64,000 bases of DNA, taken from positions 124,001 through 188,000 of the forward strand of contig NZ_CANMQD010000002.1 in the NCBI RefSeq assembly GCF_947499945.1. The letters run 5' to 3'. A program made the position numbers and the translations under genes. Numbering within the stretch: position 1 is the first letter of the stretch; every line of letters starts with the position of its first letter. This document shows, in pieces, positions 27,013 to 49,400 of the stretch. This DNA comes from an uncultured Sulfitobacter sp. (lineage in GTDB: Bacteria; Pseudomonadota; Alphaproteobacteria; Rhodobacterales; Rhodobacteraceae). Below the pieces are notes generated by a model. It searched no databases and was not told where the DNA came from. It was given only the letters and a program-made list of their open reading frames with translations.

Positions 27013-28401
27013 TTACATGTGAATTGCGCCGTCGCCGCAGGCCAGTGCAGCTTCGCGCACCGCTTCCGAATATGTCGGGTGTGCGTGACATGTCATTGCC
27101 AAGTCCTGTGCGGATGCGCCAAATTCCATTGCAACGCAAACCTCATGGATCAGGTCTCCTGCGGCTGGGCCAATGATGTGACAGCCCAGAATGCGGTCGG
27201 TTTCCTTATCAGCGAGCAGCTTTACAAAACCATCACCGGAAAAATTCGCTTTAGCGCGAGCGTTGCCCATGAAGCTGAATTTACCGACCTTATAGGCGCG
27301 GCCCGCTGCTTTGAGCGTCTCTTCAGTCTCCCCCACGTTTGCAACCTCGGGATGTGTGTAGATCACGCCTGGAATGACGGAGTAATTTACGTGGCCATGC
27401 TGTCCTGCAATTTGTTCAGCAGCGGCCATGCCTTCGTCTTCCGCTTTGTGCGCGAGCATGGGTCCTTCGATGACATCACCGATAGCATAAATGCCTTTCA
27501 CGGAGGTTTCCCAGTGATCGTTCACTTGGATCTGACCGCGATCGGTCATCTGGATGTCCAAAACTTCAAGGCCGAGCCCATCCTTGAAGGGGCGGCGACC
27601 CGTTGCAAGCAATACAGTATCAGCATCAATGACATGTTCGCTGTCATCTTTGCGCAGTTTATAGGTGACTTTCGCCTTGGATTTGGTGGCTTCGGTCCCT
27701 TGGACAGCCGCCCCCATAATGAAATTTAGCCCCTGTTTCTTGAGCATTCTTTGGAATTGTTTGCTCACCTCTGCATCCATGCCTGGGGTGATGTGATCGA
27801 GAAACTCAACAACCGTCACTTCCGAGCCAAGGCGCGCATAGACCGAGCCAAGCTCAAGTCCGATAACGCCTGCGCCGATCACGACCATTTTTTTCGGAAC
27901 CTTGCCAAGCTCCAACGCGCCTGTGGAGGTCACGACGACTTTTTCATCAATCTCGACGCCTTTGAGGGGGGACGGCTCTGATCCGGAAGCAATGATGATA
28001 TTCTTAGCCTCATGGACCTCATCGCCGACCTTAACCTTGCCCGCTGCTGGGATGGATGCCCACCCCTTGATCCAGTCTACTTTGTTCTTTTTGAACAAAA
28101 ATTCGATGCCTTTAGTGTTGGTGTCGATGGTGGACTGTTTATACTTTTGCATCTGCGGCCAGTCGACTGAGGGGCTTTTGCCTTTGAGACCCATCTCGGC
28201 GAAGTTATGCTCCGCTTCGTGTAGCATATGGGAGGCGTGCAGGAGCGCTTTGGACGGGATGCAGCCGGTGTTCAGGCAAGTGCCGCCGAGGGTTTCACGC
28301 CCCTCAACGCAAGCCGTCTTCAGGCCAAGTTGCGCACAGCGGATGGCCGCAACATAGCCGCCGGGGCCAGCTCCGATAATGATGACATCATAGCTCGACA
28401 T
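27013..28401 (-). CDS. lpdA: Dihydrolipoyl dehydrogenase (E3)
   Basis: FAD enzyme that reoxidises the dihydrolipoyl groups of the 2-oxoglutarate (and possibly pyruvate) dehydrogenase E2. In 462 aa the FAD motif GAGPGG is at 10-15, the redox disulfide is Cys42-Cys47 in [13 protein letters not shown], and the C-terminal HAHPTYSEA carries the catalytic His-Glu dyad. The start at 28401 gives [12 protein letters not shown]; the frame to 28443 adds unconserved residues. It is the last gene of the suc run, separated from sucB by three unrelated small genes. Confidence 0.96.
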
Positions 28402-29787: not shown

Positions 29788-31320
29788 TCACAAATCCATC
29801 AACAGGCGACGTGGATCCTCAAGCGCTTCTTTCACGCGCACAAGGAACGTCACCGCGCCTTTGCCGTCGACGATGCGGTGATCATAGCTGAGGGCGAGGT
29901 ACATCATTGGGCGGATCACGACTTCGCCGTTGATTGCCATGGGGCGGTCTTGGATTTTGTGCATGCCGAGGATGCCGGACTGTGGCGGGTTCAGGATGGG
30001 TGATGACATGAGCGAGCCGTAGACGCCACCGTTGGAGATGGTGAAGGTGCCGCCCTGCATTTCAGCCATTGAGAGTTTGCCGTCACGGGCGCGGGCGCCT
30101 TTTTCTGCGATAGCTTTTTCGATTGTCGCAAAAGACATGGCGTCGGCGTCACGGATGACGGGAACGACGAGACCTGTGGGCGTGCCTGCGGCGATGCCCA
30201 TGTGCACGAAATTCTTATAGACCACATCGGTGCCGTCGATTTCGGCGTTCACTTCGGGCACTTCGCGCAGAGCATGCACGCAAGCCTTGGTGAAGAAGGA
30301 CATGAAGCCAAGTTTCACGCCGTGTTTTTTGAGGAAGAGGTCTTTGTACTCGTTGCGCAGTGCCATCACCTCGGTCATGTCGACCTCGTTGTAGGTGGTG
30401 AGCATGGCGGCCGTGTTTTGACTCTCTTTCAGACGGCGTGCGATGGTCTGGCGCAGGCGGGTCATTTTAACGCGCTCTTCGCGGGAGGCGTCGTCCGCAG
30501 AGGAAGGTGCGCGTGGAGCAGCAGGGGCTGAAGCGGGTGCTGATTTGCCCATTTCGAGAGCCTTGGCAACATCTTCTTTCATCACGCGGCCATCGCGGCC
30601 TGTGCCTGTGACTTGATCGCGGCTGACGCCTGCCTCTGCCATGGCTTTCTTTGCGGAGGGGGCGTCTTCGACGTCCTTGCTGCCGCTTGCCGGATTTTGT
30701 GCGGCGGGGGCGGGGGCAACCTCGGATGCGGGAGCACTCGCAGCGGCACCTGCGCCTGAGGAGATAACGGCGAGTTTGGCTTTTGCGTCGACGGTGTCGC
30801 CTTCATTGGCGATGATCTCGGTCAGGGTGCCCGCTGCGGGGCTTGGTACTTCGACGGAGACTTTGTCGGTTTCAAGTTCACAGAGCATTTCGTCTTGGGC
30901 GACGGTATCGCCAACCTTTTTGAACCATGTGCTCACGGTTGCTTCTGTTACGCTTTCACCCAGGGTGGGGACCATTACATCGACCGCTTCGCCAGATTCA
31001 GCAGTAGCAGCGGGCGATTGTGCGGCGGCACCTTCGGTTTGGGCAGCTTCCTTGGCTTTAGGTGCGGCTGTGGAGCCTGCATCCCCTTCTGACACCATGG
31101 CAAGGAGGGCGTCTACGCCTACCGTCTCCCCTTCAGCGGCGACAATTTCGGACAAGGTGCCTGCAACGGGGCTGGGCACTTCGACGGTGACTTTGTCCGT
31201 CTCAAGCTCGCAGAGCATTTCATCGACGGCGACGGTATCGCCTGCTTTTTTGAACCATGTGGCTACGGTGGCCTCGGTTACGGATTCACCTAAGGTCGGG
31301 ACGCGGACTTCGCTGCTCAT
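29788..31320 (-). CDS. sucB: Dihydrolipoyl succinyltransferase (E2 of 2-oxoglutarate dehydrogenase), two lipoyl domains
   Basis: E2 core of the 2-oxoglutarate dehydrogenase complex. At 510 aa it is longer than the roughly 400-aa E. coli enzyme because it carries two lipoyl domains: residues 5-78 with lipoyl Lys43 and 115-188 with Lys153, exactly 110 residues apart and nearly identical ([14 protein letters not shown] and [14 protein letters not shown]). Ala/Pro linkers flank an E3/E1-binding domain (about 218-253), then the catalytic domain with SYDHRIVDG near the C-terminus. The ATG overlaps the sucA stop by 4 nt. Confidence 0.96.
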
Positions 31321-34280
31321 GATTTGGATCCTTTAACGGTAAGCGCATCGTTCACGAGTGCGGCTTGTTGTGCTTTGTGTTGGGAGGCGAGGCCGGTTGC
31401 AGGCGATGCTGCGGTGGCGCGGCCAGCGTAGACGGGGCGGGTGTGCGTGGCCTTGATACGGCCCAGCACCCATTCGATGTTTGGCTCGATAAAGCTCCAT
31501 GCACCTTGGTTCTTTGGCTCCTCCTGACACCAGACCATCTCTGCGTTTTTAAAGCGTTCAAGCTCTTTCACGGCAGATTGGGCGGGGAAGGGATAGAATT
31601 GTTCGAACCGCATGAGGTAGACATCGTCGATACCGCGGGAGTCACGCTCCTCAAGCAGGTCATAGTAGACTTTGCCGGAGCACATGACGACGCGTTTGAT
31701 TTTGTCGTCTTCCACCAGTTTGGTGTCGGAGTTGCCCTGCTGGGCGTCATCCCAGAGCACGCGATGAAAGCTGCTGCCTGTGGTGAATTCCTCGGCCTTG
31801 CTGACAGCCATTTTGTGGCGCAGCAGAGATTTGGGGGTCATCAGCATCAGCGGCTTGCGATAGCTGCGGTGCAGCTGGCGGCGCAGGATGTGGAAGTAGT
31901 TGGCCGGTGTGGTGCAGTTTGCCACGATCCAGTTGTCGCCGCCGCACATGGTGAGGAAACGCTCCAGACGGGCGGAGGAATGCTCTGGACCTTGGCCTTC
32001 ATAGCCGTGGGGCATAAGGCAGACGAGGCCCGACATGCGCAGCCATTTGCTCTCGCCTGACGAGATGAACTGGTCGAACATGATCTGTGCACCGTTCGCG
32101 AAATCGCCGAATTGCGCTTCCCACAGGGTCAGCGCGTTCGGCTCTGCTAGCGAGTAGCCATATTCGAAACCGAGTACCGCATATTCGGAGAGCATGGAGT
32201 CGATGACTTCATATTCGGCCTGACCCTTGCGGATGTGGTTGAGCGGGTAATAGCGTTCTTCGGTGTCCTGATTGATCAGGGCGGAGTGGCGCTGAGAGAA
32301 GGTGCCGCGTGCGGAATCCTGTCCTGAAAGGCGTACCTTGTACCCTTCGGTGAGCAACGAGCCAAAAGCGAGTGCCTCGGCAGTGGCCCAGTCAAACCCT
32401 TCACCGCTGTCGAGCATTGCGGCCTTTGCCTCCAGCAAGCGGGCCACTGTTTTATGCAGCGGGTAGCCGTCGGGGGCGGTGCTAATGGCCTTGCCCACTT
32501 CGGCTAATGTTTCAGGCTCTACCGCAGTTTTGCCGCGCTGGTATTTCTTTTCAGTAGGACGGCTCAGATTTGACCATTTTCCGTCCAGCCAGTCGGCCTT
32601 GTTGGGGCGGTATTCTTTGCCAGCCTCGAACTCGTCGTTCATCTTGGCCTGGAACTGTGCTTTGAGATCCTCGATCTCGCCCTCTGGGATGAGGCCGTCC
32701 TTTACCAAGCGGTCGGTATAAAGGGTGAGCGTGGTCTTCTGCTTTTTGATCTTCTTATACATGACAGGGTTTGTGAACATCGGTTCATCCCCCTCATTAT
32801 GACCAAAGCGGCGGTAGCAGATGAGGTCGATGACCACGTCTTTGTGAAACTTCTGGCGGAATTCTGTAGCGACGCGGGCGGCGTGCACAACGGCCTCGGG
32901 GTCATCACCGTTGACGTGGAAAATCGGCGCTTCAACGACCAGCGCGTTGTCGGTTGGATAGGGGGAGGAGCGCGAGAAGTGGGGTGCAGTAGTGAAACCG
33001 ATCTGATTGTTGACCACGATATGCATGGTGCCCCCCGTACGGTGACCGCGCAGACCCGACAGGGCGAAACATTCCGCCACAACGCCTTGGCCTGCGAAGG
33101 CCGCATCGCCGTGCAGCAGGATCGGCATCACGGCAGTGCGGTCTTTGTCGCCCAACTGGTCCTGCTTGGCGCGGACTTTGCCGATCACGACAGGGTTTAC
33201 GGCCTCAAGGTGGGAGGGGTTGGCGGTCAAGCTGAGGTGCACGGTGTTGCCGTCAAACTCACGGTCACTGGACGCACCAAGGTGATATTTAACATCGCCT
33301 GAGCCATCGACGTCCTCGGGCTTGAAACTGCCGCCCTGAAATTCGTTGAAGATGGCGCGGTAGGGTTTTTGCATGACGTTTGCGAGGACAGAGAGACGAC
33401 CGCGGTGCGGCATGCCAATCACGATATCTTGGACGCCGAGGTTGCCGCCGCGTTTGATGATCTGCTCCATCGCCGGGATCAGGCTTTCGCCGCCATCAAG
33501 GCCGAAGCGCTTCGTGCCCATGTATTTGACGTGCAGGAATTTCTCGAAGCCCTCGGCCTCGACCAGCTTGTTCAGGATCGCTTTGCGGCCCTGTTTGGTG
33601 AACTGGATTTCCTTGCCGTAGCCCTCGATCCGCTCCTTGAGCCACGCGGCCTCTTCGGGGTTGGAGATGTGCATATATTGCAGGGCGAACGTGCCGCAAT
33701 AGGTGGCTTTGAGGATGTCCGTGATCTGGCGCATGGTGGCAATTTGCAGGCCAAGCACGTTGTCGATGAAGATGGGGCGATCCATGTCGGCCTCGGTGAA
33801 GCCGTAGGACTTCGGGTCCATCTCCGGGTGGTTGGTGGTTTCGCGCATGCCAAGCGGATCAAGATCGGCGGCGAGGTGGCCACGGATGCGGAAGGCGCGG
33901 ATGATCATGAGCGCACGGATACTGTCGAGCACAGCACGTTGGATTTGATCGTCTGACAGCTCAACGTTTGCGGCCTTGGCCTTCTCGGCGATCTTGCCGC
34001 CTGCGGCCTTCGCTTCGGCTGGCCATTCGCCTGTGAGGGCGTTGGTGAGATCATCGGCGGGCATGGGGGGCCAGTCGGTGCGCGCCCAGCTTGGGCCTGT
34101 GGCTTCGGCCTTGACGTCATTGCCATCGTCACCGAGCGCTTTGAAAAACTCTTGCCAGCTCTCGTCTACCGCATTGGGGTCGTTGGCATAGCGCGCATAC
34201 ATTTGCTCCAGATACTCGGCATTGTGGCCTTGCATGAAGGAGGAGGCGTGAAATTGGTCGTTGGCTGGATGGTCGGTCAT
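31317..34280 (-). CDS. sucA: 2-oxoglutarate dehydrogenase E1 component
   Basis: Thiamine-diphosphate enzyme of 987 aa that decarboxylates 2-oxoglutarate and succinylates E2. Visible landmarks are the N-terminal [24 protein letters not shown], the [14 protein letters not shown] segment, [13 protein letters not shown] with the ThDP-binding core, and [21 protein letters not shown] in the C-terminal half. The start ATG at 34280 is followed by the family's N-terminal helix. A 401-bp leader with a large hairpin separates it from sucD. Confidence 0.97.
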
Positions 34281-34681: not shown

Positions 34682-35569
34682 TTAGCCTTTTGCGATCGCT
34701 TCTTGCACGGCTTCACCCAGTGTTGCGGGGCTGTCGGCCACCACAATACCAGCTTCGCGCATGGCGTTGATTTTGCTTTCCGCATCGCCTTTGCCGCCAG
34801 CGACAATCGCGCCTGCGTGGCCCATGCGGCGGCCGGGAGGGGCTGTGCGGCCTGCGATGAAGCCTGCGGTGGGTTTCCAGCGGCCTTTTTTACGCTCGTC
34901 CGCGAGGAACTGGGCGGCTTCTTCTTCGGCGGAGCCGCCGATTTCGCCGATCATGATGATGGACTGTGTCTCAGGGTCGGCGAGGAACATTTCCAGGACG
35001 TCGATATGCTCGGTCCCTTTGATAGGGTCGCCGCCGATGCCTACTGCGGAGGATTGGCCGAGGCCGAGATCGGTGGTCTGTTTGACCGCCTCATAGGTGA
35101 GCGTGCCGGAGCGCGAGACAACACCGCAAGAGCCGCGTTTGTGAATGTGGCCGGGCATGATGCCGATTTTGCACGCGTCAGGCGTGATCACACCGGGGCA
35201 GTTGGGGCCGATCAGGCGGGACTTGGAGCCGTCCAGCGCACGCTTTACGCGCATCATGTCGAGAACTGGAATGCCTTCGGTGATGCAAACGATCAATTCG
35301 ATTTCTGCGTCAATCGCCTCAAGGATGGAATCAGCTGCGAAGGGGGGCGGGACATAGATTACGGTGGCGTTCGCGTCGGTGACGTGACGCGCTTCGTGCA
35401 CGGAATTGAAGACGGGCAGGTCAAGGTGGCTTTGACCGCCTTTGCCGGGGGTGACGCCGCCGACCATTTTGGTGCCGTATGCAATCGCTTGCTCGGTGTG
35501 GAACGTGCCTTGGGAGCCGGTTAGGCCCTGACAGATTACTTTAGTGTTCTCGTCGATAAGTACGGCCAT
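34682..35569 (-). CDS. sucD: Succinyl-CoA synthetase alpha subunit
   Basis: A 295-aa CoA-binding and phosphohistidine subunit. The N-terminal CoA fold has [13 protein letters not shown] (17-29); the active-site histidine is in [16 protein letters not shown] near residue 245; LIGPNCPG is the other conserved box. With SucC it makes ATP or GTP from succinyl-CoA. It is separated from sucC by a small secreted-protein gene, whereas sucC and sucD usually abut. Confidence 0.97.
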
Positions 35570-35618: not shown

Positions 35619-36140
35619 CTATTGTTTGATGTGGTCGAGCGGCAGCAGACGCTCGACGTTGATGAATGTCTCGGTGCCCGATGCGCCGTCGCGCGCGCCC
35701 ACCTGCACCACTGCGATGCGGTTGGGGTTGAGCTGTGCAGCGGCGATGAAAGCGGTGCCATTTGCGCGGGCGAAGCCTTCGGGGACTTTTGCTTTTCTAT
35801 CTGCAAGCCCCTCTTGCTTCAGCCCCAGTCCGACCCATTTGATCGCCGTTTGCAGATCAAACCCGTCAAAGGCGACTTCGCAGCGGCGGTCCGTGCCTAT
35901 GGTCTGCGCGCGCCCCGTCACGGGGGAGGGGGCGGCGGAGGTGAACGGATCGAGATTGTAGAAGTCGATCCTTGCCCCTGACGGGCCGATGTTGGCTTGA
36001 GCCGTTTGCGCGGTCAGGCGCGGGTTGAAGCAGTGATCGGCGAAGGCGCGCCCTACGGTTGCTGCATCTTGCGCGGCCACAGCGCTGCCTGCCACCAAAG
36101 CGGTGGTCAGACAGAGGGTTGTGGCGCATGCAGCATTCAT
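35619..36140 (-). CDS. Secreted protein of unknown function inserted between sucC and sucD
   Basis: A 173-aa protein with a good signal peptide (1-23, cleavage near AVAA). The mature part has two or three cysteines (FADHCFNPR, RRCEVAF) and the segment IKWVGLGLKQEGLADRKAKVP. I do not recognise a family with known function. It starts 5 bp after the sucC stop and ends 49 bp before sucD, on the same strand, so it is almost certainly co-transcribed with succinyl-CoA synthetase. Confidence 0.72.
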   Translation of the reverse strand: MNAACATTLCLTTALVAGSAVAAQDAATVGRAFADHCFNPRLTAQTAQANIGPSGARIDFYNLDPFTSAAPSPVTGRAQTIGTDRRCEVAFDGFDLQTAIKWVGLGLKQEGLADRKAKVPEGFARANGTAFIAAAQLNPNRIAVVQVGARDGASGTETFINVERLLPLDHIKQ

Positions 36141-36145
36141 TGTGA

Positions 36146-37339
36146 TCAGCCTTTGACGGCTTTCACGATCTTCTGAGCGCCGTCTTTGAGGTTATCAGCC
36201 GCGATCACGTCGAGGCCGGAATTGTTGATGATGGCTTTGCCTTCTTCAACGTTGGTCCCTTCGAGGCGCACGACGAGCGGCACTTTGAGGCCGACCTCTT
36301 TGACTGCGGCCACAACGCCCTCGGCGATGACATCGCAGCGCATGATGCCGCCGAAGATGTTCACCAAAATGCCTTTGACCTGCGGGTCGGAGGTGATGAT
36401 TTTAAAGGCCTCGGTCACTTTCTCTTTGGTGGCACCGCCGCCAACGTCGAGGAAGTTCGCAGGCTCTGCGCCGTAAAGTTTGATGATGTCCATGGTGGCC
36501 ATCGCGAGACCCGCACCGTTGACCATGCAACCGATTTCGCCGTCAAGGGCGATGTAGTTCAGGTCATACTTGGAAGCTTCGAGCTCTTTGCTGTCTTCTT
36601 CTGTCTCGTCGCGCAGCTCAGACACTTCGGCCTGACGGTACATGGCGTTGCCGTCAAAAGACACTTTTGCATCGAGCACTTTGAGATCACCGGAGTCAGT
36701 AACGATTAGCGGGTTGATTTCCAGCATTTCCATATCGCGCTCGAGGAATGCTTTGTAGAGGATGCCCATGAGCGAGACGCACTGCTTGACCGCTTTGCCT
36801 GTGAGGCCCAGCTCGAACGCGATGCGGCGGCCGTGGAATGCTTGGAAGCCCGTGGCAGGATCAACGGAGAAGTTGATGATTTTCTCTGGTGTGGAAGCAG
36901 CGACTTCTTCGATGTCCATGCCGCCTTCGGTGGAGCAGACGAAGCCTACGCGGGATGTTTCGCGGTCAACCAGCAGGGCGAGGTAGAGTTCAGTCTCAAT
37001 GCCGGAGCCATCTTCAATATAGACGCGGTTGACCTGCTTGCCTGCGGGGCCAGTCTGGTGCGTGACCAATGTACGGCCCAGCATCTTCTTGGCTTCTTCC
37101 GCTGCCTCGGCCACGGATTTGGTTAGGCGTACGCCACCTGCCTCGCCTGCGCCTTCTTCTTTGAACTTACCTTTGCCACGGCCACCAGCGTGGATTTGCG
37201 CCTTTACCACCCACAGCGGGCCATCAAGTTCGCCTGCAGCATTTTTTGCATCTTCGGCTTTGAGGACAACGCGTCCGTCGGAAACTGGTGCGCCGTAGCT
37301 GCGCAGAAGAGCTTTTGCCTGATATTCATGGATGTTCAT
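36146..37339 (-). CDS. sucC: Succinyl-CoA synthetase beta subunit
   Basis: A 397-aa ATP-grasp subunit. It opens with [16 protein letters not shown], has the [15 protein letters not shown] nucleotide region (about 45-60), and the C-terminal [16 protein letters not shown]. The start at 37339 gives the family's universal N-terminus; an open frame reaches 37384 but is not conserved. First gene of the suc run; two TGTGATCACA palindromes lie about 110-140 bp upstream. Confidence 0.97.
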
Positions 37340-37451
37340 AAGCGACGGTCCCGTCTTTGGTTCTGATTTAAGCGTGATATACACGGATTGCGTAATTTTT
37401 CCTGAACAGCATTGAGCAGCTGGATGAATAAATCCAGACTAAAATGACATT

Positions 37452-37482
37452 TGTGATCACACGGTCAGAACGTGTGATCACA
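37452..37482. promoter_or_regulatory. Tandem TGTGATCACA palindromes upstream of sucC
   Basis: Two perfect 10-bp palindromes, TGTGATCACA at 37452-37461 and 37473-37482, are 21 bp apart start to start. Together they form a larger inverted repeat with 14-bp arms (TTTGTGATCACACG and its complement). They sit 113 bp upstream of the sucC ATG. The same 10-mer pair precedes sdhC. Two-turn spacing suits two dimers bound on one DNA face. The regulator is unidentified. Confidence 0.65.
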
Positions 37483-37598
37483 AATGCGGGAATGTTTGGA
37501 AAATAATGTCAAAGAGTGCGGGTTTCCGGATTGAAACCGTTCACTTCTTGTCAAAATCGCAACAGATTGGAAGCAGGTTTTGGCCTACTTGCCACGGA

Positions 37599-44354: not shown

Positions 44355-44385
44355 AAAAGGCGCGCCCAAGAAGGCGCGCCTTTTT
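44355..44385 (+). terminator. Rho-independent terminator after mdh
   Basis: AAAAGGCGCGCC (44355-44366), a 6-nt loop and GGCGCGCCTTTT (44373-44384) plus a further T form a 12-bp stem with a U-tract, 21 bp after the mdh stop. It insulates mdh from the sdh operon. Confidence 0.92.
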
Positions 44386-44414: not shown

Positions 44415-44444
44415 TGTGATCACAGTGTTATTTCTGTGATCACA
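44415..44444. promoter_or_regulatory. Tandem TGTGATCACA palindromes upstream of sdhC
   Basis: TGTGATCACA occurs at 44415-44424 and again at 44435-44444, 20 bp apart start to start, inside a 10-bp-arm inverted repeat (GTGATCACAG and complement). The pair lies 127 bp upstream of the sdhC ATG. It matches the pair upstream of sucC in sequence, spacing and distance, suggesting co-regulation of the two TCA operons. Confidence 0.65.
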
Positions 44445-44571: not shown

Positions 44572-44955
44572 ATGGCCGATGTGAACCGGGGCAACCGTCC
44601 TCTTTCGCCACACTTGTCGATTTACCGCCCGCAGCTGACGTCGATGACGTCGATCCTGACACGGATTACGGGCAACGCGATGCTGATTTCTGCACTGTTA
44701 ATTGTCTGGTGGTTTCTTGCTGCCGCAAGCGGTCCTGCCTATTTCGATATCGTAAACGGATTTCTGACCAGCTGGTTCGGTGATTTGATCATGTTCTTCT
44801 CTGTGTTGGGGCTGTGGTATCACACGCTGGCCGGTGTACGGCACTTGATCTGGGACAATGCTGTGATGATGGATATCGAGACGGCGGAGAAGCTGGGCTG
44901 GGCCTGTATTGGCGGGTCTGTTCTGTTGACGATCATTACAGTTATCGCGGTTTGA
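44572..44955 (+). CDS. sdhC: Succinate dehydrogenase cytochrome b556 subunit
   Basis: A 127-aa membrane anchor with three helices (about 30-52, 62-85, 105-127). RPLSPHLSIYRPQLTSMTSILTRITG is the SdhC N-terminal quinone-site signature, and the haem-ligand His is in YHTLAGVRHLIWD. AGGAGCC precedes the ATG. First gene of the sdh run. Confidence 0.95.
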   Translation: MADVNRGNRPLSPHLSIYRPQLTSMTSILTRITGNAMLISALLIVWWFLAAASGPAYFDIVNGFLTSWFGDLIMFFSVLGLWYHTLAGVRHLIWDNAVMMDIETAEKLGWACIGGSVLLTIITVIAV

Positions 44956-44965
44956 GGAGAATACC

Positions 44966-45337
44966 ATGGCATTTATGACAGACCGCAAACGCGCTATGGG
45001 ACTCGGCTCTGCCAAGTCCGGCACGGCGCATCACTGGTCCATGACCATCAGCTCGGTTGCTTTGCTGATCCTGCTGCCATTGTTCGTGTTCACCTTTGGT
45101 GCAGCATTGGGCGGTACATATGAAGAGATCGTCGCCTACTATAGCCGTCCGTTCCCAGCGATCATCGCCGCACTGACCATTCTGGTGACGTTCAAGCATT
45201 TCAACGATGGCGTGCAAACGCTGCTTGAGGATTATGTGCACGGGTTGGCGCAAAAAGTGTCCATCGTTGTGATGACCTGCATCAGCTACGGTGCTGCGGC
45301 GGTTGGTATCTTTGCGATTGCGAAATTGGCCCTGTAA
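44966..45337 (+). CDS. sdhD: Succinate dehydrogenase membrane anchor subunit
   Basis: A 123-aa, three-helix anchor (about 28-50, 60-80, 95-120). The opening RKRAMGLGSAKSGTAHHWSMTISS and the TFKHFNDGVQTLLEDYVH segment, with histidines suited to haem or quinone binding, match alphaproteobacterial SdhD. It starts 10 bp after sdhC. A 189-bp spacer without recognised genes separates it from sdhA. Confidence 0.93.
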   Translation: MAFMTDRKRAMGLGSAKSGTAHHWSMTISSVALLILLPLFVFTFGAALGGTYEEIVAYYSRPFPAIIAALTILVTFKHFNDGVQTLLEDYVHGLAQKVSIVVMTCISYGAAAVGIFAIAKLAL

Positions 45338-45526: not shown

Positions 45527-47332
45527 ATGGCTGCTTATGAATATGAGACCCATGAATATGACGTTGTTGTTGTAGGGGCAGGGGGCGCGGGTTTGCGTGC
45601 CACTTTGGGCATGGCGGAGCAGGGGCTGAAGACGGCCTGTATCTCCAAAGTGTTCCCCACACGCTCGCACACAGTAGCCGCGCAGGGTGGTATTGCTGCG
45701 TCCTTGTCAAACATGGGCCCAGACAACTGGCAGTGGCACATGTATGACACGGTCAAAGGTTCTGACTGGTTGGGTGATACGGACGCTATGGAATACCTCG
45801 CGCGTGAAGCGCCTAAGGCGGTTTATGAGTTAGAACATTACGGTGTTCCATTTTCGCGTACCGAAGAAGGCAAGATTTACCAGCGTCCGTTCGGTGGCCA
45901 TACCACTGAGTTCGGTGAGGGACCGCCGGTGCAGCGTACCTGTGCTGCTGCGGACCGGACGGGGCATGCGATCTTGCATACGCTTTATGGTCAATCGCTC
46001 AAGCACAACGCCGAGTTCTACATCGAGTATTTCGCCATTGATCTGGTGATGTCTGACGATGGCGTGTGTCAGGGTGTCCTGTGCTGGAAGCTTGATGATG
46101 GTACGATGCACTTGTTCTCAGCAAAGATGGTTGTGCTTGCGACGGGTGGCTATGGCCGTGCGTATTTCTCAGCGACTTCTGCCCACACCTGTACGGGTGA
46201 CGGCGGTGGTATGACCGCACGTGCGGGTCTGCCGCTTCAGGATATGGAGTTCGTTCAGTTCCACCCGACGGGTATCTATGGCGCAGGCTGTTTGATCACT
46301 GAGGGTGCGCGCGGGGAAGGTGGTTATCTTACCAACTCCGAGGGCGAGCGGTTTATGGAGCGTTATGCGCCAACCTACAAAGACCTCGCCAGCCGTGATG
46401 TTGTGTCGCGCTGCATGACGATGGAGATCCGCGAAGGTCGCGGTGTCGGCGAGAAGGGGGATCACATCCACCTGCACCTCAACCACTTGCCACCAGAGAC
46501 GCTGGACCTGCGTTTGCCGGGTATCTCCGAATCTGCGCGTATCTTCGCGGGCGTGGACCTCACGAAAGAGCCGATCCCTGTATTGCCGACTGTGCACTAT
46601 AACATGGGCGGCATTCCGACGAACTATTGGGGTGAAGTGCTTGCTCCGACCAAGGACAAGCCTGACAATGTCTCGCCTGGTCTGATGGCTGTGGGGGAGG
46701 CGGGTTGTGCCTCTGTGCATGGTGCAAACCGTTTGGGCTCGAACTCGTTGATCGATCTGGTCGTATTTGGTCGTGCGGCAGCTATTCGTGCGAAGGAAAT
46801 CGTAGACCCGAGCACGCCTGTACCAACGCCGAGCAAGCGTTCTATTGAGGCCGCGTTCTCGCGGTTTGACGGCTTGCGCTATGCCAAGGGCCACGTGCCA
46901 ACGGCCGAGCTGCGCCTTGAGATGCAGCAGACCATGCAGGCCGATGCGGCAGTATTCCGCACCGATAAGACGCTGGCCGAGGGTGAAGCGAAGATGAAGG
47001 ATGTGGCGGGCAAACTGTCCGACCTGAAGGTGACAGATACTTCACTTGTCTGGAACTCTGACTTGATGGAAACCCTTGAGCTGACCAACCTGATGCCGAA
47101 CGCAGTAGCAACGATTACGGCAGCGGCAGCGCGTAAGGAAAGCCGTGGGGCGCATGCGCATGAGGATTACCCTGATCGCGATGATGTGAACTGGCGCAAG
47201 CACTCGCTCATCTGGTTCAAAGGGAACGAGGCGAGCCTTGGCTTCCGCGGTGTGCACACACAGCCGTTGACCAGCCATAACGAGGGCGGCATTGACCTGA
47301 AAAAAATCGCTCCGAAAGCGCGGGTTTACTAA
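45527..47332 (+). CDS. sdhA: Succinate dehydrogenase flavoprotein subunit
   Basis: A 601-aa catalytic subunit oxidising succinate to fumarate. FAD-binding GAGGAG starts at residue 17; His48 in [10 protein letters not shown] is the covalent FAD attachment site; the active-site run [21 protein letters not shown] and the C-terminal [12 protein letters not shown] are conserved. The next gene begins 2 bp after its stop but is not sdhB; two extra genes intervene. Confidence 0.97.
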
Positions 47333-47334
47333 GA

Positions 47335-48231
47335 ATGACCGTTGCGGCGCAGACAGGCACAACGTGGAGCCAAGCGGGATTTACCCCCGTTTGTGCGCTG
47401 CAAGTGTTCGGCATGCGCCGCTCTGGCAACCACGCGATCATTGACTGGCTGATGCGCAATGCGCCTGAGGCTGCGACGGGTGGCGTATTCTTTAACAATT
47501 GCAAGTTCGGGAAAAATCCGCAGGTCCACTATGGGTCGCTGGATGTCTATGACGCGCAGCGGCAGGTGATGCCACATGTGGATGTTAAAGATGACAAGCG
47601 GATCGCTGGAGCAGGGGACGCGCCGATGGCGATTGTCTCCTATGAGGACCGCATGCCGCAACCTGCGGGGCAGCCGCAAAAGGCCAGCCACACCATGTCG
47701 GATGCGGATTTCTCGCATCAGGTGGTTATCTACCGCAGCTTTTTAAATTGGTCGGCGTCGCTCTTGGCGAAGATCAAGAAGAATGACGGTTTTGGCGCGA
47801 CGGACCGCATGCGCATTATGACGCTGGCCTTTGCGACTTATATTCAGGGGTTGAACCGTGTTGCCGAGGCCAAAGGGATCATCGCGATCTGCTATGATAA
47901 CTGGATGACGTCGGAAGATTACCGTGCGGGTATTTTGCGGGCTTTGGGTTTGCCTGTGCGCGATCTGAGCCGTGGCAAAGTCCAGCGCTATGGCGGTGGC
48001 TCCTCGTTTCAGCGCAAGGTGGGTAGCGCGGGTGACTTGAATTCCACGTCCCGTGATGCGGCCATGGCGGGTGATCTGGAATATGGATTGCTGGCGTGGA
48101 CTGCGGCGCATGACTTGCGGTTCATGGAGCGGTTGATCCCGCATTTCGAAGACGATGCGGAGCGCTTGGCCACCTTGGCCGAGACATCAAAATTGCATAT
48201 GAAACTACCGCCTCGAAAGGCTCCTGTATGA
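47335..48231 (+). CDS. Sulfotransferase-like P-loop protein inserted in the sdh operon
   Basis: A 298-aa cytoplasmic protein. Residues 25-39 (FGMRRSGNHAIIDWL) resemble the 5'-phosphosulfate-binding loop that opens sulfotransferase-fold proteins, and YRSFLNWSASLLAK (about 134-147) could carry the 3'-phosphate-binding Arg/Ser. The remainder is not similar to an enzyme I can name. It begins 2 bp after sdhA and overlaps the following lipoprotein gene by 4 nt, so it is part of the operon. Sulfotransfer is a fold-level guess; a role in complex assembly is equally open. Confidence 0.6.
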   Translation: MTVAAQTGTTWSQAGFTPVCALQVFGMRRSGNHAIIDWLMRNAPEAATGGVFFNNCKFGKNPQVHYGSLDVYDAQRQVMPHVDVKDDKRIAGAGDAPMAIVSYEDRMPQPAGQPQKASHTMSDADFSHQVVIYRSFLNWSASLLAKIKKNDGFGATDRMRIMTLAFATYIQGLNRVAEAKGIIAICYDNWMTSEDYRAGILRALGLPVRDLSRGKVQRYGGGSSFQRKVGSAGDLNSTSRDAAMAGDLEYGLLAWTAAHDLRFMERLIPHFEDDAERLATLAETSKLHMKLPPRKAPV

Positions 48232-48620: not shown

Positions 48621-49400
48621 ATGGTACAACTGACGCTCCCCAAGAACTCCCGCATGACCAGCGGTAAAACATGGCCCAAGCCAGAAGGGGCAACCAACCT
48701 CAAAGAGTTCCACATCTATCGCTGGAACCCTGATGACGGCAAAAATCCGTCTGTCGATACCTATTTCGTCGATCTGGACGATTGTGGGCCGATGATTTTG
48801 GACGCGATCATCAAGATCAAGAACGAGATTGACCCCACGCTGACCTTCCGCCGCTCCTGCCGTGAGGGCATTTGTGGCTCCTGTGCGATGAACATCGACG
48901 GGATCAACACGCTGGCCTGTACTTATGGCATGGCCGAAGTGAAGGGTGTCGTGAAAATTTATCCGCTGCCGCACATGCCTGTGGTCAAGGATTTGATCCC
49001 GGATCTCACGCACTTCTACGCGCAGCACGCGTCCATTAAGCCATGGTTGGAGACAGAGACACCCGCACCTGCGAAAGAATGGAAGCAGTCGATTGAGGAT
49101 CGCTCCAAGCTGGACGGCCTTTATGAGTGCATCATGTGTGCGTGTTGCTCTACCTCTTGCCCGAGCTATTGGTGGAATGGCGATCGCTACCTTGGACCCG
49201 CAGCGCTGTTGCATGCCTACCGCTGGATCATCGACAGCCGCGATGAGGGAACGGGTGAGCGTTTGGACGAGCTTGAGGATCCCTTTAAACTCTATCGCTG
49301 CCACACGATTATGAACTGCGCCAAGACCTGCCCCAAAGGTCTGAACCCTGCGCTGGCGATCAGCCAGATTAAGAAGCTGATGGTCGAGCGGACTGTTTAA
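48621..49400 (+). CDS. sdhB: Succinate dehydrogenase iron-sulfur subunit
   Basis: A 259-aa electron-transfer subunit. The 2Fe-2S cluster ligands are in [15 protein letters not shown] (about 77-91), the 4Fe-4S set in [15 protein letters not shown] and the 3Fe-4S set in [17 protein letters not shown]. The start at 48621 gives the conserved [16 protein letters not shown] lies upstream. An earlier in-frame start at 48585 is not conserved. Confidence 0.97.

Follow-up and report, generated by a model that had tools for sequence, protein, structure and literature searches.

The closest described counterpart of the sites analysed here belongs to AkgR of Rhodobacter (Cereibacter) sphaeroides, a GntR-type regulator that we take to be the product of RSP_0981. 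A 2015 report by Imam in mBio is said to have found that AkgR directly activates genes of the tricarboxylic acid (TCA) cycle and that orthologs exist in other alphaproteobacteria. The sequence GTGATCAC is given among the AkgR binding sites of R. sphaeroides in a paper that calls AkgR a transcriptional activator (PMC6365646). RSP_0981, a member of the GntR family, is the predicted regulator of RSP_0967-6, RSP_0974-6 and RSP_0965-62, its predicted targets being sucCD (succinyl-CoA synthetase), the 2-oxoglutarate dehydrogenase genes and sdh (PMC4344238). The locus described here has the same GTGATCAC core, the same type of regulator and the same predicted targets. Two other systems resemble it in part. 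PS417_07240, a GntR-like regulator of deoxyribonate oxidation in Pseudomonas simiae, is 32% identical to AkgR and is proposed to use the same GTGATCAC palindrome, which lies ahead of its own gene, but it differs in having a single site and a catabolic cluster as its target (PMC6365646). CceR (RSP_1663), a LacI-family regulator of central carbon metabolism, also has sdh, as well as mdh, among its predicted targets in R. sphaeroides, but its motif, GTT N6-8 AAC, is not that of the sites found here (PMC4344238).

The window, by which we mean the whole stretch of 64,000 nucleotides that was analysed, contains exactly four copies of TGTGATCACA, arranged as two pairs. Shuffled versions of the window hold 0.05 copies on average, and none of 100 shuffles reached four. 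The motif search places the predicted AkgR-type operators of the suc pair at 37452..37461 (nearer to sucC) and, 21 bp on, at 37473..37482 (farther from it); both the position and the motif are conserved in relatives. Together with its outer flanks this pair makes up a larger inverted repeat, TTTGTGATCACA ... TGTGATCACAAA, at 37448..37486. The predicted operators of the sdh pair are at 44415..44424 (farther from sdhC) and, 20 bp on, at 44435..44444 (nearer), both periods being counted from start to start. The sucC start codon is separated from the suc pair by 112 bases, and that of sdhC from the sdh pair by 127. The two pairs, their periods of 21 and 20 bp and their location ahead of sucC and sdhC were thus correctly described in the first-pass annotation of this DNA, as was the small likelihood of a chance match; its placement of the suc pair upstream of sucC stands as well, with the exact distance, given there as 113 bp, corrected by one base.

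Across the genome (4,145,890 bases, 4.15 Mb) there are 7 exact copies of the TGTGATCACA 10-mer, and the exact pair occurs in only two places, both of them in the window. One of the three copies besides the window's four lies ahead of a GntR-family gene. The other two lie in a short-chain dehydrogenase frame (L008) and in a 731-codon open frame (L009), and were not counted as operators because both sit inside reading frames. The promoter-located sites of the genome are those at suc, at sdh and at the GntR regulator's own gene. A text search of the literature with the exact TGTGATCACA returned, judging by titles, nothing on bacterial gene regulation except one paper on Sphingobium, and the match to PMC6365646 was found with the 8-mer GTGATCAC as a whole word. 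The first-pass view that no named regulator has this site is not supported: with GTGATCAC reported for AkgR (PMC6365646) and targets of this kind predicted for RSP_0981 (PMC4344238), the finding is one of a known regulator at known targets, in another species, and the paired palindromes are very probably docking sites for AkgR.

The sites precede the sucCD-sucAB-lpd genes on one side and the sdh genes on the other. The first gene behind the suc pair, on the minus strand, is sucC (36149..37339; succinyl-CoA synthetase beta subunit, with ATP-grasp_2 and Ligase_CoA domains), and on the same strand lie sucD (34685..35569; succinyl-CoA synthetase alpha subunit), sucA (31320..34280; 2-oxoglutarate dehydrogenase E1), sucB (29791..31320; dihydrolipoyl succinyltransferase E2) and lpd (27016..28398; dihydrolipoyl dehydrogenase). 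Behind the sdh pair, on the plus strand, sdhC comes first (44572..44955; Sdh_cyt domain), with sdhD (44966..45337), sdhA (45527..47332) and sdhB (48621..49400) downstream. Promoter scans gave no sigma-70 match at suc or sdh, and column profiles showed no clear -35/-10. The lack of a sigma-70 consensus match is expected for activated promoters, though it is not proof of activation.

Two further ORFs lie among these genes. A 173-aa ORF between sucC and sucD (35619-36140 of the window, minus strand) has no Pfam or NCBIfam match, and related ORFs were found in 2 of the 40 stretches fetched from relatives (L081 and L106). A 298-aa ORF between sdhA and sdhB (47335-48231 of the window, plus strand) matches no Pfam or NCBIfam family, and a tblastn search of the same 40 stretches found no match to it; its start, GMRRSGNHAI, resembles by eye a sulfotransferase-like P-loop. 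Just behind mdh, a perfect 12-bp inverted repeat followed by T's (44355-44384 of the window) looks like the mdh terminator, which would separate mdh from the sdh promoter; the terminator scan did not flag this repeat.

The pair is widespread in the family. In a sample of 100 family genomes, each at least 90% complete, the core pair, defined as GTGATCAC-N4-32-GTGATCAC, was found in 89, and its reversed control in none of the 100. The surroundings of pairs were examined in 40 stretches from 31 genomes with listed pairs, plus the window, a sample that informs on what follows a pair and on its period and not on pair frequency. In this sample 61 of 65 pairs sit ahead of sucC (32) or sdhC (29), and their period is 21 bp in 57 cases and 20 bp in 4. 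The remaining four pairs lie elsewhere, with periods of 18, 18, 27 and 21 bp. The three with periods of 18, 18 and 27 bp were set aside, being ahead of neither sucC nor sdhC. The fourth, a 21-bp pair in genome G037 (L092 1994-2100), precedes a gene that reads, when named from its sequence by eye, as a class II fumarase (fumC), and may represent the recruitment of another TCA-cycle gene in one relative. The distance between paired sites is kept while the sequence of the spacer is poorly conserved and varies between genomes; the outer flanks are conserved (TTT before the first site, AAA after the second), the inner flanks much less so. Exact TGTGATCACA sites number 4 to 9 in each of 8 relatives. 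Absence of the pair from close relatives, or a random spread of the motif across their genomes, had been named in the first-pass annotation as what would speak against its reading; the core pair is instead present in 89 of the 100 genomes, against none for the reversed control, and the 8 relatives hold only these few exact sites. Its proposals of a single regulator serving both clusters and of TCA-cycle targets are supported, as is that of sites placed side by side in twos (the period is 21 bp, roughly two turns of DNA, in 57 of 61 pairs, with the spacer sequence free). Its phrase "much of the TCA cycle" is somewhat wide: the promoters with sites in this genome are those of suc, sdh and the regulator's own gene, to which the relative G037 adds fumC.

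Variations on the paired arrangement were seen in several relatives. Ahead of sucC, Pseudotabrizicola sediminis (L146, 19903-19952) has a series of three core sites, each 21 bp from the next; a Gemmobacter nectariphilus MAG (L155, 20188-20263) has three such sites and a fourth 26 bp farther along, and in L168 (20165-20219) a pair is followed by one more site at 26 bp. In Szabonella alba (L129) the sdh pair is present, with a mismatch in one of its sites. Among genomes of the class outside the family, a pair at 20-22 bp occurs in 4 of 284, whereas all 5 family members included in that sample have one. One of these four genomes is G226, which belongs to a different family of the class; its 21-bp GTGATCAC pair (L227 992-1020) lies beside a GntR/FCD gene whose product is 30% identical to that of akgR, which suggests that pairing of sites is more widespread in this group of regulators.

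The genome also carries an ortholog of the GntR-family regulator. This candidate akgR is one of 11 GntR-domain genes in the genome; it is located on the minus strand at G000:C1:1217614-1218261, on another contig and far from the suc-sdh cluster, and encodes a 216-aa protein with GntR (PF00392) and FCD (PF07729) domains. The product is 77% identical to that of G046, a Cereibacter-like genome in which the GntR gene lies directly behind sdhB, an order that fits the RSP_0962-0981 numbering. Compared with G046, the gene described here is thus on a different contig from suc-sdh, and its own promoter carries a site that G046 is without. Among the best 80 of more than 461 relatives of the Cereibacter-like query, the best named match of the G046 protein is that of Cereibacter ovatus (94%), and R. 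sphaeroides is absent from these 80 named loci.

The ortholog (best E at most 1.7e-79) is present in 89 of the 100 family genomes and co-occurs closely with the core pair: 88 genomes have both, 10 have neither, one (G018) has the pair only and one (G035) the ortholog only (Fisher p = 7e-12, kinship ignored). Both discordant genomes have a partial account. G018 is 91% complete, and sdhC was not found there either; in G035, sucC is preceded by two one-mismatch sites, AGTGATCACA and TGTGATCGCA, with a period of 21 bp. The 10 genomes lacking the ortholog show no site with at most one mismatch in the 350 bp that precede sucC or sdhC; one of them, G016, has a two-mismatch site in that range. On a tree built from sucC alone (44 rows, many of the forks being weak, with G018 and G035 labelled as holders), the presence of the regulator changes 4 times (4-6 in bootstraps; 2 changes are forced by well-supported branches), some of the changes being nested among holders. 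The joint absence is therefore not one event, and regulator and sites appear to be inherited together.

The lone promoter site outside the window is at C1:1218270, with 8 bases between it and the ATG of the GntR/FCD gene. The region upstream of akgR was compared in 88 of the 89 orthologue-bearing genomes, G084 having been left out because the contig ends within its gene. In 63 of the 88 there is a site with no more than one mismatch (exact in 54), while base-shuffled sequence gives 0.2 on average. TTGAC stands 16-18 bp ahead of the site (start to start) in 58 of these 63 genomes, and the first ATG follows 7-9 bases behind it in 47. If TTGAC is the -35 box, the site would overlie the -10 region and the transcript would begin close to the ATG, so that the akgR mRNA would be leaderless and its promoter blocked by AkgR. 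The site is missing in 25 of the 88 genomes, the Cereibacter-like G046 among them. Among the 80 named loci, which are the best 80 of more than 461 and lean to the lineage of the Cereibacter-like query, 15 have it with at most one mismatch, including Roseobacter sp. MED193, Ruegeria marina and a Phaeobacter strain; within the same best 80 it was not found in Cereibacter, nor in the listed Gemmobacter and Tabrizicola loci. A single site that is restricted to certain lineages and lies over the probable -10 region of akgR suggests self-repression. Neither this site nor the near-invariant 21-bp phasing is described in the portions of PMC6365646 and PMC4344238 that deal with AkgR and RSP_0981, although both may still have been published.

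Several other readings of the sites have to be weighed. It is unlikely, in our view, that they are read by another GntR/FCD protein such as the paralog on contig C5, which is 37% identical. Proteins that distant may share the palindrome, as proposed for the GntR relative with 32% identity to AkgR (PMC6365646), and the 21-bp pair of G226 adjoins a GntR gene only 30% identical to this one. However, 25 orthologue-bearing genomes have no second match at E <= 1e-20 (a count by eye in the match table), and all of them still have a pair, so that the weaker paralog (37-43%) is not needed; G049, with only a paralog-like match (2e-47), has no pair, and the lone promoter site sits at the ortholog's own gene.

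The explanation of the suc pair as a hairpin, acting as a terminator or RNA element and not as an operator on the DNA, starts from its ability to form a 17-pair stem with a 7-base loop, which was scored as terminator-like on the minus strand. Any palindrome in two copies can fold so, however, and the sdh pair was not scored as a terminator, leaving no terminator common to both loci. The distance is moreover kept across genomes whose spacers are different, and where the GntR gene is missing, so is the pair; we regard this explanation as very improbable. TGTGA and TCACA, the two halves of the palindrome, are also the half-sites of the CRP consensus, but in CRP sites six bases stand between the half-sites and here there are none in 61 of 61 pairs. 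The co-occurring gene belongs to the GntR family, and according to PMC4344238 no CRP analogue is predicted for R. sphaeroides; we give hardly any credence to a protein of the CRP/FNR type.

We consider it highly probable that the pairs are operators of this species' AkgR, whose dimers, two turns apart, would activate suc and sdh; the single site would serve to repress akgR. The activator role and the motif of AkgR and the predicted targets of RSP_0981, with which we equate it, are taken from the published work on R. sphaeroides, whereas the sites, their spacing and conservation, the gene context, the co-occurrence and the site at the GntR gene were observed here. We infer that this ortholog binds the sites, does so cooperatively, activates suc and sdh and represses its own gene. 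Each palindrome would be bound by one AkgR dimer. Since 21 bp correspond to two turns of B-DNA, the two dimers ahead of each of the sucC and sdhC promoters would point in the same direction, sitting on one face of the helix at a distance of two turns. The "dimer of dimers" of the first-pass annotation is plausible, but each palindrome suits one GntR-family dimer, and two such dimers side by side on one face are therefore likelier. At sucC and sdhC, whose promoters are without a good sigma-70 consensus, AkgR would aid the start by RNA polymerase, leading to a joint rise of succinyl-CoA synthetase, 2-oxoglutarate dehydrogenase and succinate dehydrogenase. At akgR, a dimer on the single site between the TTGAC box and the start codon would shut the promoter.

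More tentatively, the arrangement may amount to a geometric code, a possibility that we rate somewhat short of probable. Two, sometimes three, dimers in 21-bp steps on one face of the DNA would activate suc and sdh, and akgR, whose leaderless promoter has its -10 region covered by a single site, would be repressed, the number and place of the sites deciding the outcome; the self-repression branch would be present in some lineages and absent in others, including the Cereibacter-like one.

A repeat that had been unexplained is now tied to a published regulator, and what emerges is a TCA-cycle switch that is conserved in 89 of 100 sampled family genomes and follows a strict phasing rule. Two palindromes 21 bp apart provide a precise marker of the suc-sdh regulon and make cooperativity directly testable. 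The lineage-restricted site at akgR would explain differing AkgR levels between lineages of the family and, if the geometric code is true, the model organism from which AkgR is known may display no more than half of this circuit.
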